A program made the translations under genes and the position numbers. From positions 2,855,001 to 2,919,000 of the forward strand of contig NZ_CP071604.1 in NCBI RefSeq assembly GCF_017357225.1: 64,000 nt of DNA. The letters run 5' to 3'. Positions 22,837-55,964 of this stretch are shown one piece after another. Every line of letters begins with the position of its first letter. The first letter of the stretch is position 1. Source of the stretch: Rhizobium binae (GTDB lineage Bacteria; Pseudomonadota; Alphaproteobacteria; Rhizobiales; Rhizobiaceae). The notes under the pieces are model-generated. The model worked only from the letters and a program-made list of their open reading frames with translations. It made no database searches and was not told the origin of the DNA.

Positions 22837-23247
22837 GTCTCCCTCCCGTGATTGTTATGGCCTGCCCGTCTCTGTGGAGAGGGCGCTTCCTGCTGGTTTG
22901 GCGTCATTCCTCATGGAAGGTAGGCGCAAACAAATGCGCAGCAAGGCCTTCGCCTGCGGCCGGCGCGTCTGCACTCCGTTGCATTTAATCTAGTACTGGC
23001 GCCAGCCTCGCCCTTGGCGCCGCCCATCGAGATCAGGCGCCAAGCAGCATCCTCACTCGGGCAAAGCCCGGGCCACAGGGATGCGAGAGGTCGGAGAAGC
23101 GTTATCGCCCAAGCGCCACTCCCTCGGACTTCGGTGCGGCATCCTCGAACCGTCTCCTATGCCGAGAGGGCCAAGCCTCGAAACCGCACCGCCACCAAAA
23201 CCAATTCCCCTATTGCCAGCCTCTCGCCCTGCCCCTATTGTCCGCGC
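22837..23247. other. Intergenic region ahead of the FMN riboswitch
   Basis: About 410 bases with no supportable gene. It must carry the ribH promoter and that of the divergent SRPBCC gene. A loose inverted sequence (cactcgggcaaagcccgggc, near 23055-23075) is present. Confidence 0.4.
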
Positions 23248-23386
23248 CGTTCTCAGGGCGGGGTGGAAGTCCCTACCGGCGGTATGCAGTTTCGATTGCG
23301 AGCCCGCGAGCGCCTTCCGTAAGGAGGGGTCAGCAGATCAGGTGAGATGCCTGAGCCGACGGTCATAGTCCGGATGAAAGAGAACG
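23248..23386 (+). promoter_or_regulatory. FMN riboswitch (RFN element)
   Basis: The conserved blocks appear in order: TCTCAGGGCGGGGTGGAAGT, CCCTACCGGCGGTA, AGCCCGCGAGCG, GTCAGCAGATCAGGTGAGAT, GCCTGAGCCGACGGTCATAG and CCGGATGAAAGAGAA. The six-stem junction of the RFN aptamer is complete. It ends about 84 bases before ribH. FMN binding would lower expression of lumazine synthase, probably at translation initiation or by premature termination. Confidence 0.97.
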
Positions 23387-23469
23387 TGCGTTCCTGCTGC
23401 CCTCGCCGGCGGCCGGTAAACGTTCGTGATCGCCTTGGGTGAAGTGTCTGTACGCCAAAGGAGATTACC

Positions 23470-37924: not shown

Positions 37925-38087
37925 TGCCATCACCATCCATCCGCTACTGGCTGTTGAGACTAGCATGGAATAGCGTGGCCGGGATCAATTTCTAGGAAAA
38001 ATATCAGTTCGCCAGAGTCAGGCCACCGTCGAGGCTACACGCCGCGAGCCTGCTCCTTGAATCCACCGACAGTCTGCGCGCGCCACT

Positions 38088-38122
38088 CGTCCTTCGAGCC
38101 CCCTCGGGGCGCCTCTGAATGA
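38088..38122. repeat. Dispersed intergenic repeat fragment
   Basis: CTCGTCCTTCGAGCCCCCTC then GGGGCGCCTC resembles the reverse complement of the copies at 5409-5452 and 5521-5560 (CCTCGTCCTTCGAGG). It lies in the intergenic space between two minus-strand genes. Confidence 0.45.
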
Positions 38123-38173
38123 TGCTCCTCGCAGGGCTTGCCTTTCATCGGGCACAGCACCCTCCATCAGCGA

Positions 38174-38926
38174 CTATTCCACACGCCGTGCCTCCAGCGG
38201 AGCCTCCAGTCTGAAGCCGTCGAAGTGACGGCCGCCATGGGAGGCAAGCACCCGGTCGGCCAGCGCCAGGAAGCGGCCGCCATCGCCCTGCGCCGCCAGG
38301 CTGAAAGCTACGTCGAATTCGGCTGCGAGCTCCGCATCGAGCTCGCGCATCAGACGCGGCGCCCATTTTCCCCGTCCGGCCCAGGCGCCGCGTCCGAGCA
38401 GAATGAGATCTGCGAGCTTCTGGTAGAGCTGCGCGGCGATGGCGGCAGTCTCCTCCGGCGGGCGCTTGCCCCTGAGATCGTCGGCAAGATCGGTCACCTG
38501 ATAGCGCAGCATGTCGTAGCTCGCCCCGGCAAGCGGTTTCGGCCCCGCCGCCAGCACCGCCGCCGCCTTTGCCTGGATGATGCCTGCGCGTCCGGTATCC
38601 GCTCCAACGATGCGACCGGTGGCGACCATGTTGACCATAATGGGGCAGCCGCCCTCGGCATCGACATGAAGATAGTGCGCCAGCGTCTCTTCGTCGTGGA
38701 TGAAGGCTTCGACCGGGAAGCCCTCATGCGTGAAGGATTCCCGCCAGGCCCTTTCCAGCGACGGAAACACGACGACGAGATCGATGTCCGAAAACGCCGT
38801 CCCTTCGCCGCGCATCAGAGAGCCGGTGGCGTAAGCGAAAGCCGCCCCGGCGTAACTGTTGGCGACGCAGCGGCGGGCGGCAGCGAGCACCTGCTCCGCA
38901 AGGTTGGTTTTTTGCAGTTCGTCCAT
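38174..38926 (-). CDS. Nucleotidyltransferase-fold protein preceded by an attenuator
   Basis: A 250-residue protein of the DNA-polymerase-beta nucleotidyltransferase fold. The motif GS-x(8)-SDIDLVVVF (TGSLMRGEGTAFSDIDLVVV, about residues 34-53) holds the two catalytic Asp. The rest is helical, as in aminoglycoside or lincosamide nucleotidyltransferases, but no specific substrate motif is seen. Start ATG 38926 has GAGGACGAG ahead; the frame continues to 39004 in sequence with no protein character. The upstream 160 bases carry a short leader peptide and mutually exclusive hairpins (see 38960-39087), suggesting control by ribosome stalling. Other roles, such as nucleotide-second-messenger or toxin-type activity, cannot be excluded. 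Confidence 0.82.
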   Translation of the reverse strand: MDELQKTNLAEQVLAAARRCVANSYAGAAFAYATGSLMRGEGTAFSDIDLVVVFPSLERAWRESFTHEGFPVEAFIHDEETLAHYLHVDAEGGCPIMVNMVATGRIVGADTGRAGIIQAKAAAVLAAGPKPLAGASYDMLRYQVTDLADDLRGKRPPEETAAIAAQLYQKLADLILLGRGAWAGRGKWAPRLMRELDAELAAEFDVAFSLAAQGDGGRFLALADRVLASHGGRHFDGFRLEAPLEARRVE

Positions 38927-38959
38927 GATCTCGTCCTCGAATGCCGGAGGCGAGCGGGC

Positions 38960-38989
38960 AAACAAAAACCCGCTCGTTTCCGGCGGGTT
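38960..38989 (-). terminator. Attenuator terminator (segments 3:4)
   Basis: AACCCGC (38989-38983), 9-nt loop, GCGGGTT (38973-38967) and TTTTTGTTT (38968-38960) on the minus strand. It lies 34 bases before the nucleotidyltransferase start codon, between leader peptide and gene. Confidence 0.8.
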
Positions 38990-39053
38990 GGGTCTCGGCA
39001 GCAATGAACGGAAATTCAGTTCACGCGTCTGCTACCCACCGCCGAGGCGGTGG
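38960..39053 (-). promoter_or_regulatory. Transcription attenuator upstream of the nucleotidyltransferase
   Basis: On the minus strand four segments are visible in order. Segment 1 CCACCGCC (39053-39046) pairs with segment 2 GGCGGTGG (39043-39036). Segment 2 extended, GGCGGTGGGT (39043-39034), can also pair with segment 3 ACCCAACCCGCC (38993-38982) with a two-base bulge. Segment 3 (AACCCGC, 38989-38983) pairs with segment 4 GCGGGTT (38973-38967), followed by TTTTTGTTT, a typical terminator. The 1:2 and 2:3 pairings exclude each other, and segment 1 lies inside the leader peptide gene. This is the classical layout for leader-peptide attenuation. Confidence 0.75.
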
Positions 39054-39087
39054 TCGTAGACGTCGAAATTGCAAATATCCTGTTCAT
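39016..39087 (-). CDS. Leader peptide of the attenuator (23 codons)
   Basis: ATG 39087 to TGA ending at 39016 encodes a 23-residue peptide starting MNRIFAISTSTTTASAV. It has no clear ribosome site. The segment IFAIST is very close to IFVIST of the ErmC leader, whose IFVI motif stalls ribosomes in the presence of macrolides. The Ser/Thr-rich stretch after it is an alternative stalling signal (Ser or Thr tRNA shortage). A ribosome stopped at the Ser codon of IFAIS would cover the start of segment 1 and favour the 2:3 antiterminator. The resemblance is by eye and from memory. Confidence 0.6.
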   Translation of the reverse strand: MNRIFAISTSTTTASAVGSRRVN

Positions 39088-39199
39088 GGCGGCGAGGATA
39101 TCGCTCGGCGGCGATAGCGTCAATCTGCCGAGAACGCTTCCCCGCCCCGCCCTTTTCCGTCTAAGATGCGCCAAAGACTCGTCAACAGGAAGGCCCGCC

Positions 39200-39895
39200 A
39201 TGCCCCATCCCGCCACCGTCATTCCGCGTCCCGCACCGGTTCTGCTGCCGGTTGAAGGCAGCGACGAACGCTTTCCGGTGCGCCGCGTCTATTGTGTCGG
39301 GCGCAATTATGCCGACCATGCGATCGAGATGGGCCATGATCCCAGCCGCGAGCCGCCCTTCTTCTTCCAGAAGAATGCCGACAACCTGCTGCCGGCAGGC
39401 AACGCGTTCCCTTATCCGCCGCTCTCGACCGACGTGCATTACGAGGTCGAATGCGTGCTGGCGCTGAAATCGGGCGGTGCCAACATCGAAGCCGCGCAAG
39501 CGCTGGACTGCATCTACGGCTATGCCGTCGGCATCGATTTCACCCGCCGTGACCTGCAGGGCGAGGCCAAGAAGCTCGGCCGCCCTTGGGAACTCGCCAA
39601 GGCCTTCGAACATTCCGCGCCCGTCTCGGCGATCGTGCCGGCGAGCCGCATCGGCCATCCCGGCGCAGGCCGGATCTGGCTGGAACAGAATGGCAAGCGT
39701 GTCCAGGACGGCGATCTCAATCAGATGATCTGGAAAGTACCGGAGATCATCGCCGAACTTTCTAAACTCTTCGTGCTGGCGCCGGGCGACGTCATCATGA
39801 CCGGCACGCCGGCCGGCGTCGGCGCAGTCGCACACGGCGACCGTATCACTTGCGGCATCGACGGCGTCGCGGCGCTGTCGGTCGAGGTCATCTGA
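39200..39895 (+). CDS. Fumarylacetoacetate hydrolase family protein
   Basis: A 231-residue FAH-superfamily enzyme. After a short N-terminal part comes YCVGRNYADHAIEMGHDPSR, FFFQKNADNLLP, the metal ligands in HYEVECVLAL (E-x-E) and GIDFTRRDLQ (Asp), and MTGTPAGVGAVAHGD. It cleaves or decarboxylates beta-diketo acids, most like the fumarylpyruvate or 2-oxo-hydrolase group. ATG 39200 has AGGAAGG ahead; frames upstream run through the opposite leader. Likely in an operon with the gamma carbonic anhydrase gene 12 bases further on. Confidence 0.9.
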   Translation: MPHPATVIPRPAPVLLPVEGSDERFPVRRVYCVGRNYADHAIEMGHDPSREPPFFFQKNADNLLPAGNAFPYPPLSTDVHYEVECVLALKSGGANIEAAQALDCIYGYAVGIDFTRRDLQGEAKKLGRPWELAKAFEHSAPVSAIVPASRIGHPGAGRIWLEQNGKRVQDGDLNQMIWKVPEIIAELSKLFVLAPGDVIMTGTPAGVGAVAHGDRITCGIDGVAALSVEVI

Positions 39896-39907
39896 CCGGA
39901 GGAAATC

Positions 39908-40438
39908 ATGCCGATTTACGCTCTTGGCGGATTGACGCCGAAACTGCCGCCAGCCGGTCTGCATTGGATCGCCCCCGACGCCCATGTCATCGGTCAGGTC
40001 GAACTTGGCGAGAATGTCGGCATCTGGTTCTGCGCCGTGCTGCGCGGCGACAATGAGTCGATTACGATCGGTGAAGGCAGCAATATTCAGGAAGGCGTAA
40101 TGGCGCATACCGATATGGGATTCCCGCTGACGACGGGAAAGGGCTGCACCATCGGCCACCACGCTATCCTCCACGGCTGCACGCTCGGCGACAATGTGCT
40201 GGTCGGCATGGGCGCGACCATCCTGAACGGCGCCAAGATCGGCAACAACTGCCTCGTCGGCGCCAATGCGCTCGTCACCGAAGGCAAGGCGTTTCCTGAC
40301 AACTCGCTGATCGTCGGCGCACCGGCGCGCATGGTGCGGGTGCTCGATGAGACGGCGGCAGAAGGCATCCGGCGTTCGGCGGAAAATTACGTGAAGAATT
40401 GGCAGCGATTTGCGCGGGATCTGAAGCAGATTGGGTGA
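39908..40438 (+). CDS. Gamma-class carbonic anhydrase family protein
   Basis: A 176-residue left-handed beta-helix protein of hexapeptide repeats (WFCAVLRGDNESITIGEGSN, CTLGDNVLVGMGATILNGAK). The zinc His set is in EGVMAHTDMG and CTIGHHAILHGC, as in gamma carbonic anhydrases and YrdA/PaaY-like proteins. Trimer expected. Activity may be carbonic anhydrase or acyltransferase-like; many members are inactive until reduced or metalated. GGAGGAAATC lies ahead of the ATG. Confidence 0.9.
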   Translation: MPIYALGGLTPKLPPAGLHWIAPDAHVIGQVELGENVGIWFCAVLRGDNESITIGEGSNIQEGVMAHTDMGFPLTTGKGCTIGHHAILHGCTLGDNVLVGMGATILNGAKIGNNCLVGANALVTEGKAFPDNSLIVGAPARMVRVLDETAAEGIRRSAENYVKNWQRFARDLKQIG

Positions 40439-43021: not shown

Positions 43022-44065
43022 ATGCGCAGCAGAGCATCGAAATTCAGCGTCGCCGTTGCTTTCCTTCTGGCAAGCAGCAGCTTGACCATGGCCGCCCCGG
43101 CAGTCGTTAATTGCAATACCGCCGTGCGTGGCACGCTCGAATACCGGCTGTGCATGCCGACTAGATCAATTCCCACCGGCAGCAAATTCAATCCGAACGA
43201 CAGCGATCGCAGCAGCCGAAGCATTGGCGGCAGCCAGAAGACGACGAGCACCAGTTCCAGTGCCGAGTCCGGCGACCATAGTGGGAGTGGCAATCAGGTT
43301 GCGGATGAAGGCGGAAACGACACCGGCGACAACACTGGTGACGACAATGACCATGGCCACGACCATCACGGCGGCAAGGATCACGATCATGGCAAAGATG
43401 GCCATGGCAAGGACAACCATGGTGGCAAGGACCGCGATCATCATAGCGACGACAAGGGCGGCAAGGATCACGGGCACGGCAAGGACGGGCACGGGAAGGA
43501 TAACCACGGCGGCAAGGAAGGTCACGGCAAGGGCGACAACGGCGGCTCCGGCAAGAGCGACAACGGCGGCTCCGACAAGGGCGACAATGGCGGTTCCGGC
43601 AAGAGCGACAATGGTGGCTCCGACAAGGGCGACAACGGCGGTTCCGGCAAGAGCGACAATGGCGGCTCCGGCAAGAGCGACAATGGCGGCTCCGGCAAGA
43701 GCGACAATGGCGGCTCCGGCAAGAGCGACGATGGCGGCTCCGGCAAGACCGACAATGGCGGCTCCGACAAGGGCGACAATGGCGGTTCCGGCAAGAGCGA
43801 CAATGGCGGTTCCGGCAAGAGCGACAATGGCAGTTCCGACAAGAGCGACAATGGCGGCTCCGGCAAGAGCGACAATGGCGGCTCCGACAAGGGCGACAAT
43901 GGCGGTTCCGGCAAGAGCGACAATGGCGGTTCCGACAAGAGCGACAATGGCGGTTCCGGCAAGAGCGACAATGGCGGCTCCGACAAGGGCGACAATGGCG
44001 GCTCCGGCAAGAGCGACAATGACGGCTCGGGCAAAGGCGGTTCCGGCAAGGGCGGACCGAACTGA
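43022..44065 (+). CDS. Secreted repeat protein (Gly-Ser-Lys-Asp octapeptides)
   Basis: A 347-residue exported protein. Signal peptide 1-24 (cut near MAA-PAVV), a short Cys-containing segment (VVNCNTAV, RLCMPTRS, about 28-42), a Ser-rich linker, a His/Asp/Gly-rich part (DHGHDHHGGKDHDHGKDGHG), then about 20 octapeptides of the GGSGKSDN / GGSDKGDN type, ending GGSGKGGPN. The composition suggests an extended, charged surface or extracellular polypeptide, possibly metal or calcium binding through Asp/His. ATG 43022 follows TTGGGAGACG. A CtrA-type box precedes it and a strong terminator follows. Confidence 0.75.
   Translation: MRSRASKFSVAVAFLLASSSLTMAAPAVVNCNTAVRGTLEYRLCMPTRSIPTGSKFNPNDSDRSSRSIGGSQKTTSTSSSAESGDHSGSGNQVADEGGNDTGDNTGDDNDHGHDHHGGKDHDHGKDGHGKDNHGGKDRDHHSDDKGGKDHGHGKDGHGKDNHGGKEGHGKGDNGGSGKSDNGGSDKGDNGGSGKSDNGGSDKGDNGGSGKSDNGGSGKSDNGGSGKSDNGGSGKSDDGGSGKTDNGGSDKGDNGGSGKSDNGGSGKSDNGSSDKSDNGGSGKSDNGGSDKGDNGGSGKSDNGGSDKSDNGGSGKSDNGGSDKGDNGGSGKSDNDGSGKGGSGKGGPN
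43541..44020 (+). repeat. Tandem array of about 20 24-bp repeats
   Basis: Units of the form ggcggctccggcaagagcga + caat (24 bases, 8 codons) repeat about 20 times without a frameshift. Because 24 is a multiple of three, the other frames on both strands are also open (overlapping frames at 43128-44213, 43166-44113 and 43522-44049), but these are shadows. Copy number is likely to vary between strains by slippage. Confidence 0.85.
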
Positions 44066-53355: not shown

Positions 53356-54171
53356 TCATGCCCTCTTTTTCGGAGCGGGCCAGTTGTGGGTCTCCTCCGT
53401 CGCGTCGCGGCACCAGCGGAAGAAGGCGTCATAAAGAAGCATGCCGGCCTCGAGCTGTTCCAGATCGTCGGAATACATCCTCGACAGGCCGAGCGACGCG
53501 GCAAGCAGACCGGGCGCCTCGGGTGCGAGATCGAGTCTTGCGGTATCGGCGGCGCGGACGATCTTCGCCAGGCGCAGCAGTGGTTCCGACGCCAGCCCGA
53601 ACTCTTCGACCATCACGTCGAAGGTGCAGAGTTCGCCGCGATGGCTCCAGAACACCTCCTCAATATCGAAGGGTGTTGCCCCGAAGCGCGTTCCGACGTC
53701 CAGAACATCGGGCGTCGGCACGAACAGAAACAGCGCGTTCGGATCGACGAAACGCCGGATCAGCCACGGGCAGGCGATGCGGTCGATCTTCGGCCGAGCC
53801 CGCGTCACCCAGACGGTGCGTCCCTCCAGGTCGCGGCGCGGCAGCTTTTCCGCCGGCACCGCCGGTCCTTCGGCGATCCATGCGTCGAAGCCGCCCTCGA
53901 GGCTCTCGGCCTCCATTCCGGCGTGGCGGAGATAGGCGGCGACCCCGTGGCTGAGCTTGCCGCCTCTCTGACAGACCACGACGACGGCATCGGCCTCGAC
54001 GCTGCCTGCCCAGACGACGACATCGGCATGGCTGCGCCGGATCGAGCCCGGCACCAGCCGCGGATCAAGCGCAAAATCCTCTTCGGTGCGAACATCGATG
54101 ATGCAAGGCGCACCCGGCGTGCCGATGAGGCGGCTGAGTTTATCGGGAGAAATTTCGAGAAATGACGGCAT
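53356..54171 (-). CDS. chrB: Rhodanese-ChrB chromate-resistance protein
   Basis: A 271-residue fusion. Residues about 5-105 form a rhodanese-like domain with an active-loop Cys (VVVCQRGGKLSHG); residues about 115-265 are the ChrB C-terminal domain (RPKIDRIACPWLIRRFVDPN, YDAFFRWCRDATEETH). The usual ChrB N-terminal regulatory domain is replaced by rhodanese. It probably senses or handles sulfate/chromate and acts with ChrA. Lies 1 base upstream of chrA. Confidence 0.9.
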   Translation of the reverse strand: MPSFLEISPDKLSRLIGTPGAPCIIDVRTEEDFALDPRLVPGSIRRSHADVVVWAGSVEADAVVVVCQRGGKLSHGVAAYLRHAGMEAESLEGGFDAWIAEGPAVPAEKLPRRDLEGRTVWVTRARPKIDRIACPWLIRRFVDPNALFLFVPTPDVLDVGTRFGATPFDIEEVFWSHRGELCTFDVMVEEFGLASEPLLRLAKIVRAADTARLDLAPEAPGLLAASLGLSRMYSDDLEQLEAGMLLYDAFFRWCRDATEETHNWPAPKKRA

Positions 54172-54484
54172 GACGCGTCCCTCCGTTGATCGGTTCTACT
54201 GGACGCGATTCTTCAGCATGGCGCCTCGTGGGGTGATCGCGACCCCATGCAAAATCATTCGCAAAGAGACCCGGCCATGTCAAGCGCTCGGTCGGCCCCT
54301 GGCGGCGGAGCTTCTCTGCCGGCGCCAGACCGACCGGCCAATTCAGCAGATCCGGCGAATATCAGCTGCCAATCCTTGGGGCGTTCCATGCCGGAAATCC
54401 CTGATATTATTCGCCTCGCGGCCCCAGAATGGAACAAAAAGCGCGTTGCGCCATTTCCTTGTCACCGCAAGAGGAGAAAGTACC

Positions 54485-54847: not shown

Positions 54848-55061
54848 CGCGGCAGGCCTTGAACGTCGCCAAGCAAGTCCCATCTAAGGGCTATAGAGTT
54901 TGTTTCTGACGGTTGACCACGGAGGTACTGGCAGCCGTTGTCGAGACAAATCGAGGAAGGTCGGTGCGAGTTTCGCCCGGCCTTTTTTCTTGCCCATGGA
55001 GGCGAAGGCACGCCGAAACCGACACGATTGGGCAAATTCGAGTTGGCGCCTCATCCCAATC

Positions 55062-55888: not shown

Positions 55889-55964
<76 letters not shown>

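Follow-up and report, generated by a model that had tools for sequence, protein, structure and literature searches.

A conserved leader-peptide attenuator upstream of a nucleotidyltransferase gene in Rhizobium that may sense threonine and serine decoding

A nucleotidyltransferase gene (NT in the following) of Rhizobium binae is preceded by a short RNA element, which we describe here; both lie on the minus strand of a 64,000-nucleotide stretch of contig NZ_CP071604.1 (positions 2,855,001 to 2,919,000), which we refer to as the window. On balance, we consider it probable that this element is a ribosome-mediated transcription attenuator which senses slow decoding of threonine and serine codons and controls accessory genes. 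That an attenuator is present is well supported: comparison between genomes supports the architecture, the leader frame and the alternative pairings as well as, apart from some exceptions, the codon run, and we infer the transcript start site, the ribosomal stall, the inducer and the inactivation of an inhibitor by NT. In the order of transcription, the parts of the locus are as follows.

39095..39123, minus strand: predicted sigma-70-like promoter, TTGACG (39123-39118), 17 nt, TATCCT (39100-39095); from a promoter scan.
39016..39087, minus strand: 23-codon leader frame MNRIFAISTSTTTASAVGSRRVN (39087-39016 in the window sequence); from a frame call, with the start codon and open frame in 49/49 aligned elements.
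39049..39066, minus strand: Ser/Thr codon run S8 T9 S10 T11 T12 T13; from the stall model, kept in 9/11 diverged NT leaders.
39046..39061, minus strand: segment 1 of hairpin P1, with the lower stem GUCU from 39061 and CCACCGCC at 39053-39046; from sequence, fold and alignment.
39034..39043, minus strand: segment 2, GGCGGTGGGT; from sequence, fold, antiterminator alignment and swap test.
39001..39026, minus strand: P2 hairpin, GCGTGAAC...GTTCATTGC, across the leader stop codon; from the consensus fold of 49 sequences.
38982..38993, minus strand: segment 3, ACCCAACCCGCC, partner of segment 2 (antiterminator) or of segment 4; from sequence, alignment and swap test.
38960..38989, minus strand: 3:4 intrinsic terminator with U-run, stem AACCCGC/GCGGGTT at 38989-38967 followed by TTTTTGTTT; from sequence and alignment.
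38174..38926, minus strand: NT gene, 250 aa, ATG at 38926, with the NTP_transf_2 motif GS-x9-SDxD; Pfam 26.5 bits, cut-off 21.

An earlier note on this DNA had proposed a transcription attenuator that works by ribosome stalling, with pairings that exclude one another, in front of a nucleotidyltransferase gene. A check of the sequence located its leader frame, its 1:2, 2:3 and 3:4 segments and its U-run where it had placed them, and this part of its proposal is supported by the comparisons below; the lower part of the 1:2 stem (GUCU..AGAC) falls outside the segment 1 it had drawn. It had also named the loss of the leader frame in relatives as a refutation, and we made this comparison: all 49 aligned Rhizobium elements have the ATG and a frame that stays open over 21-24 codons, the commonest form resembling MSRIFAVSTTSTTTAPRWVVDA.

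The element has mutually exclusive 1:2, 2:3 and 3:4 pairings and ends in a U-run terminator. Its 164-nt region folds better than dinucleotide shuffles (z -5.15; 0/200 shuffles as good). In an alignment of 28 sequences, 93.8% of the cells of the 1:2, P2 and 3:4 structure are paired, against 33-49% in slid controls, and five pairs have changed on both sides, a number reached in 1/500 shuffles. P2 is paired in 96.0% of cells, with both-sided change in 2/8 pairs; the 3:4 stem is paired in 99.2%, with one A-U pair replaced by C-G in both diverged rows; and the antiterminator together with P2 is paired in 93.7%, the antiterminator helix alone in 91.7%. The 2:3 antiterminator is further supported by a swap test on 16 diverged elements, because native duplexes of segments 2 and 3 are stronger (mean -18.57 kcal/mol) than those of permuted partners (-16.56 kcal/mol, standard deviation 0.58), a value as low as the native one being reached in 3/5000 permutations. 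Here, segment 2 was taken as the 18-nt stretch beginning at the first G[CG]GG after position 42, a definition that may be suboptimal in some rows (the native pair of L162 ranks 12/16). RNAalifold on the 49 close relatives found almost no covariation (1/37 pairs) because these sequences are too similar. P2 is absent from the window's own minimum-energy fold, and the 3:4 stem, which contains a bulged base, went unlisted in a simple terminator scan. In the same minimum-energy fold, the leader start (39087-39070) is paired with the 3' arm of P2 (39015-39003, minus strand), and as modelled this pairing could mask the start codon in the complete RNA.

Within the window's genus, the element accompanies the gene closely. 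A search of 148 genomes found an NT homologue in 70; together with six loci from outside the genus, these gave 76 loci, of which 52 matched the covariance model R2, several of the matching rows being training rows. The element was found in 51/70 genus genomes with an NT homologue, and it lies upstream of all 50 close homologues (about 72% identity or more); the 51st match, L075, precedes an NT with about 54% identity over residues 7-80 only. Since the element precedes 50/50 close NT homologues in the genus as well as NT homologues in other families, the arrangement is not a chance one. A DNA search and covariance models found no convincing further copy in the window's genome, and Rfam gave no family at its cut-off at the place of the element. 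In three genomes (G031, G035 and G112; loci L049, L048 and L076) the NT gene seems to be split into two frames, and the leader element scores normally there.

The promoter is the single promoter-like site in a scan of 38000-40000, compared with a mean of 0.2 per 2 kb in shuffled sequence. From it, the transcript is predicted to start at about 39088-39087, on the leader ATG or next to it, and to be about 127 nt long when terminated. In 46/49 Rhizobium elements, TTGAC lies 34-37 nt 5' of the ATG; in the remaining three it lies at 43-44, where the script may have picked an earlier TTGAC. By eye, no Shine-Dalgarno sequence can be made out. With this and the predicted start at or next to the ATG, leaderless translation of the leader is probable.

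The element also occurs outside Rhizobium. Devosia nitrariae (L105) encodes an NT with 74% identity over the best segment, preceded by the leader MNCILLISTTSTTTATRWMVVA in the same RNA layout; given this identity across genera, leader and gene seem to have been transferred as one unit. When 397 genomes of the order were searched with the model R1, 17 genomes matched at E 0.01 or better: four are the window genome and congeners, nine come from two other families and have NT directly downstream (L114-L122), one (L123) has a short threonyl-tRNA synthetase gene (thrS) downstream, and three are weak and resemble generic terminators. The leaders of the NT group include MTKRTAVSTSTTTALRWLVTS, MTTMLSLSTSSTTAARWLVAS, MNGMLSVSTSTTTATRCLVTS and the more divergent MIKLMTMNTMSITTAEAGAWCRVT of L115, and a run made solely of Ser and Thr is kept in 9/11 diverged NT leaders.

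This run appears to be maintained at the level of the amino acids. Over the Ser/Thr block, the 11 diverged leaders differ from the matching Rhizobium form by 23 synonymous and 14 non-synonymous codons, against 3 synonymous and 59 non-synonymous in codons 2-7, in counts whose rows share ancestry. Six of the 14 non-synonymous changes are one Thr-to-Ser change common to the L116 group, and the other eight are in L075 and L115. In the three cleanest comparisons (L016-L105, window-L114 and window-L121), the ratio of synonymous to non-synonymous changes is 12:0 in the block and 2:14 in codons 2-7. Judged from these patterns, the leader frame appears to be translated and to carry a regulatory codon run, and the long-range codon pattern favours Ser/Thr sensing.

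Elements of the same architecture precede genes for the charging of threonine. R1, which contains no synthetase element, matched with 55 bits before the short thrS gene of L123. In 385 genomes of the class, R2 matched 12 places in 11 genomes at E 0.001 or better, and outside the window's own genome 7/11 places directly precede a short thrS gene; the other four (L165, L171, L126 and L170) look unrelated, one of them scoring 36 bits. The leaders of these seven, for example MKRLNASCTTTTTTTAMGGSLAVGMRA, MHRVAHLCTTTTTTTRFGGPDGVVMR and MNAMRQNPSTTTTTTASGGRSCGRAR, contain 4-7 consecutive Thr codons in six cases and TTTWT in one. Those of L123 and L173 read MRQMFAS[VA]TTTTTIALRWPVV and, with the seven R2 places, bring the number of genomes with a thrS element to nine. 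Each of the nine has at least one further thrS match, and the element-bearing copy lacks the N-terminal part, its match to the 565-position thrS model starting at position 163-171. Among 61 genomes of the L123 genus, two have the gene at 96-100% identity, the next matches having 55% identity and less, and because of this restricted distribution we regard the short thrS as accessory.

Elements with the same layout were also seen in three other Rhizobium genomes (L136, 1501-1632, minus strand; L137, 1501-1632, plus strand; L139, 1501-1630, minus strand), with Met/Thr-rich leaders MN[KN]FAFQAMTMG[MV]TTTLCGGGVGL. An S51-type peptidase gene lies downstream in L136 and L139, the L139 protein being PepE-like, and no S51-type frame is among the downstream frames listed for L137. 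Their scores are 42 bits (L136), 32 bits (L137) and 29 bits (L139), the latter two within the range of generic terminators. Weak model matches before unrelated genes, where the locus was read, were judged to be generic terminators; five further weak matches came without a locus. NT homologues were not found in the 12 genomes with thrS or S51 elements, in a search that had no positive control.

For the stall model, the transcript was folded as far as segment 3 reaches, while a ribosome masked the RNA to a fixed distance past its P site. At an offset of 16, capture of segment 3 by segment 2 in the window peaks at P-sites 8-11 (A-site T, S, T, T) and is about 0.5 at P-sites 5-7, so that modelled stalls with A-site T9-T12 favour antitermination; for L016 and Devosia, the permissive P-sites are 9-12 (A-site T, S, T, T). 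Over offsets of 13-19 and seven NT elements, the permissive A-site residues are Ser and Thr, save Met, Val and Ala in L010 and Leu, Val and Ala in L116. The effect is specific to the run in 5/7 elements over the offsets, L010 being broader and L116 permissive near the start and the end as well. In the model, stalling at the regulatory codons thus favours the antiterminator. A different scheme, minimum-energy folding of the whole element with masked ribosomes, produced the terminator wherever the ribosome stalled in 7/11 elements and, in the other four, at most positions, except in L075. It was replaced by folding to the end of segment 3, which represents the relevant moment, and this change of method favours finding a switch.

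Taken together, we propose the following mechanism. Transcription would start at the leader AUG or no more than one or two bases from it, and the leader would be translated leaderless. With normal decoding of Thr and Ser codons, the ribosome would run on, the 1:2 pairing or a free segment 3 would lead to the 3:4 terminator, and NT would stay off. If charged tRNA-Thr and/or tRNA-Ser became scarce, for example through inhibition of threonyl-tRNA synthetase, the ribosome would halt in the S-T run and cover segment 1, 2:3 would form, and NT would be transcribed.

The NT protein has an intact catalytic motif, with G35, S36, S46, D47 and D49 invariant in 29 homologues. No NCBIfam or curated family matched it above cut-off, no solved aminoglycoside nucleotidyltransferase matched significantly (best E 0.16), and PADLOC and a search of solved structures gave no informative match, the top profile matches being engineered repeat proteins. 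Remote homologues (27-40% identity) lie on plasmids of Streptomyces, Nonomuraea, Cytobacillus, Geobacillus and Legionella; 13 plasmid records matched NT, six of them from Rhizobium. Fusions to GNAT domains occur in two remote homologues, in the order GNAT-NT in a 1.2-Mb genome (L085, 955-2235) and in the reverse order, NT-GNAT, on a Legionella hackeliae plasmid (L180, 2411-3586), and one of these fusions is AAC(6')-Ie-like, far below the curated cut-off (61 vs 340 bits). The Legionella homologue sits among phosphotransferase, acetyltransferase and methyltransferase genes. On account of these fusions, the plasmid homologues and the Legionella gene neighbourhood, a role of NT in modifying small molecules is plausible. 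To the earlier note, NT looked like an antibiotic-modifying enzyme: the catalytic motif fits, and significant similarity to a characterised aminoglycoside nucleotidyltransferase (ANT) or to Lnu was not found.

Several observations weigh against the proposed sensing of Thr/Ser decoding. The antiterminator helix has no pairs changed on both sides, both such changes in its alignment sitting in P2. NT homologues lack the element in 19/70 genus genomes, where they are more remote (39-54% identity) and some are incomplete, and in 5/6 of the loci from outside the genus, Devosia alone matching. The Ser/Thr run is lost in 2/11 diverged NT leaders, L075 (MSKMHLTSLTAMTAR) and L115 (MIKLMTMNTMSITTA), and the other leaders of the L116 group have Ser for one Thr; NT leaders mix Ser and Thr, some with Met, so that the sensed amino acid is uncertain. 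Within Rhizobium, where codon changes were counted on the NT tree of 47 sequences, codons 5 (Phe) and 8 (Ser) changed six times each with one change altering the residue (5 synonymous to 1 non-synonymous), whereas 6/9 changes at codon 9 and 15/15 at codon 10 altered it. A pure or simple Thr sensor does not explain this constraint on Phe5 and Ser8 together with the drift of codons 9-10. Codons 11-14 (S11, T12-T14) hardly vary, but they lie in the 1:2 stem, and because that stem also holds them, this constancy cannot by itself prove codon sensing. In the stall model, L075, L115 and the thrS and S51 elements behave less like switches. R2 had one thrS element in its training set, and its scores for generic terminators go as high as 36 bits, above two of the seven thrS matches. 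Finally, we know of no link between NT and threonine; a controlled gene with a part in charging the sensed amino acid is seen in the nine thrS look-alikes and not with NT.

We next consider the macrolide reading of the earlier note. The leader stretch resembles the IFVIST motif of ErmC, and a macrolide-like drug in the exit tunnel could stall a ribosome at F-A-[VI] with Ser8 in the A site, freeing segment 2 and turning NT on. The constraint on F5 and S8 in Rhizobium, with mostly synonymous changes there and drift at codons 9-10, fits what nascent-chain arrest predicts, among the NT leaders read only L037 and L115 lack S8, and with codon 7 in the P site the modelled capture is partial (0.1-0.8 by lineage at offset 16), exceeding 0.6 at larger offsets in some. 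Outside the genus, however, F-A-V (FAV(S) in Rhizobium) is lost: IFAIS is replaced by ILLIS in Devosia and by TAVS or LSLS elsewhere, and LSV is also seen, whereas the Ser/Thr run persists in 9/11 leaders. Elements of the same architecture with Thr-rich leaders precede thrS, and no macrolide-lincosamide-streptogramin (MLS) resistance gene was recognised downstream, where NT is a generic NTP_transf_2 protein with no NCBIfam model above cut-off. We therefore demote ErmC-like arrest, on the grounds that its motif is not kept outside Rhizobium and that thrS look-alikes exist, and, in view of the constraint on F5 and S8 inside the genus, retain it as a rival; as an explanation in its own right we consider it rather unlikely. 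Drug-dependent nascent-chain stalling ranks second after a Thr/Ser decoding signal, and given the conservation of Phe5 and Ser8, a nascent-chain component may contribute. Shortage of charged Ser or Thr tRNA, which the earlier note gave as its alternative, has turned out the better of its two explanations, given the Thr-rich leaders before thrS and the kept run; the constraint on Phe5 and Ser8 weighs against it.

Other compounds could act on the same codons. Chloramphenicol- and oxazolidinone-like compounds stall ribosomes after Ala, Ser or Thr, and such context-specific peptidyl-transferase drugs might halt ribosomes within AVSTxSTTTA and so induce a modifying enzyme. The permissive stall window is rich in Ser and Thr, and some enzymes of the NT superfamily modify drugs that carry hydroxyl groups. 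Chloramphenicol and linezolid are listed as context-specific in one report (PMC13410324). This explanation, which strikes us as improbable, leaves the same architecture with Thr-codon runs before accessory thrS genes unexplained. Furthermore, we know of no nucleotidylation of chloramphenicol- or oxazolidinone-like drugs. Alternatively, the short terminated RNA or the leader peptide could be the main product and act in trans, with read-through into NT being secondary. The predicted leaderless terminated RNA and the conserved P2 hairpin would suit such a role, and rnTrpL/peTrpL of Sinorhizobium, a precedent from the same family, is reported to act in trans (PMC10117765, PMC7298713). Against it, those matches with at least 40 bits for which the DNA downstream was read stand directly before NT, thrS or S51 genes, and an antiterminator can form, which counts against a purely trans-acting RNA because such an RNA would not need one; we consider this very unlikely. 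The least probable explanation, with hardly any weight in our view, is a constitutive terminator or chance arrangement without regulation: generic CCCGCCGGAAACGGCGGG-type terminators do score about 21-36 bits with the models, but the frame, the promoter distance, the alternative pairing and the gene association are all conserved.

Returning to Thr/Ser sensing, its physiological meaning may lie in defence. The accessory genes under the attenuator may protect against tRNA-synthetase inhibitors, and since look-alike switches control spare thrS genes, the Ser/Thr switch suggests a defence against drugs that interfere with threonine charging. One inhibitor of threonyl-tRNA synthetase is obafluorin, which is made by Pseudomonas (PMC10619133); another, borrelidin, raises ribosome stops at threonine codons (PMC13410324). 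More tentatively, we suggest a family of alphaproteobacterial leaderless attenuators that would read the drug-caused loss of charged tRNA-Thr, perhaps also tRNA-Ser, and induce either, in some lineages, a spare short thrS or, in Rhizobium, Devosia and others, an inhibitor-inactivating NT, the inhibitor in this scenario being a borrelidin- or obafluorin-like soil compound. To our knowledge, attenuators that are induced by a drug detect it on the ribosome, and those of the classical amino-acid type govern biosynthesis or charging. The set described here appears to join the two types, with Thr/Ser sensing wired to accessory, patchily distributed genes (a spare threonyl-tRNA synthetase, NT and a peptidase). 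If this is true, it would provide a sequence signature by which soil bacteria resistant to inhibitors of aminoacyl-tRNA synthetases could be found, and predict a substrate class for an uncharacterised nucleotidyltransferase family. No report of this attenuator was found in the literature searched, which covered few subscription journals.

Elsewhere in the window, Rfam matched an FMN riboswitch (23245-23389, plus strand), a chrB-a RNA (54169-54251, minus strand), an ar35 sRNA (54882-54991, plus strand) and a tRNA (55892-55964, minus strand), and a 347-aa frame at 43022-44065 (plus strand) consists mostly of SDNGGSGK-type repeats.

Compared with known systems, the element is closest in layout to the Thr-codon attenuators of the thr operon type in Proteobacteria: both have a run of Thr codons (here Ser/Thr), 1:2, 2:3 and 3:4 pairings and a U-run terminator. 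Unlike these, it has a leader predicted to be leaderless and an additional hairpin, P2, at the leader stop codon, and its target is NT, an accessory thrS or an S51 peptidase rather than a threonine biosynthesis operon. A leaderless leader frame, predicted here, in an alphaproteobacterial attenuator is shared with rnTrpL of Sinorhizobium, trpL of Sinorhizobium meliloti being reported as leaderless (PMC10117765); however, the window leader contains no Trp codons and scores 16.7 bits with the Rfam family Trp_leader (RF00513), against a gathering score of 41. The ErmC and ermK leaders share with the Rhizobium leaders an IF-x-[IV]-S-T stretch, a possible resistance gene and, in the case of ermK, control by a terminator; they differ in that the motif is not kept outside the genus, that the codon run and the look-alikes point to tRNA sensing and that no MLS gene was recognised. 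Finally, NT resembles the AAC/ANT aminoglycoside-modifying enzymes in its NTP_transf_2 motif and in the GNAT fusions of its remote homologues, and stands apart from them, in sequence comparison alone, by the lack of a significant match to a solved ANT or of a curated family above cut-off.

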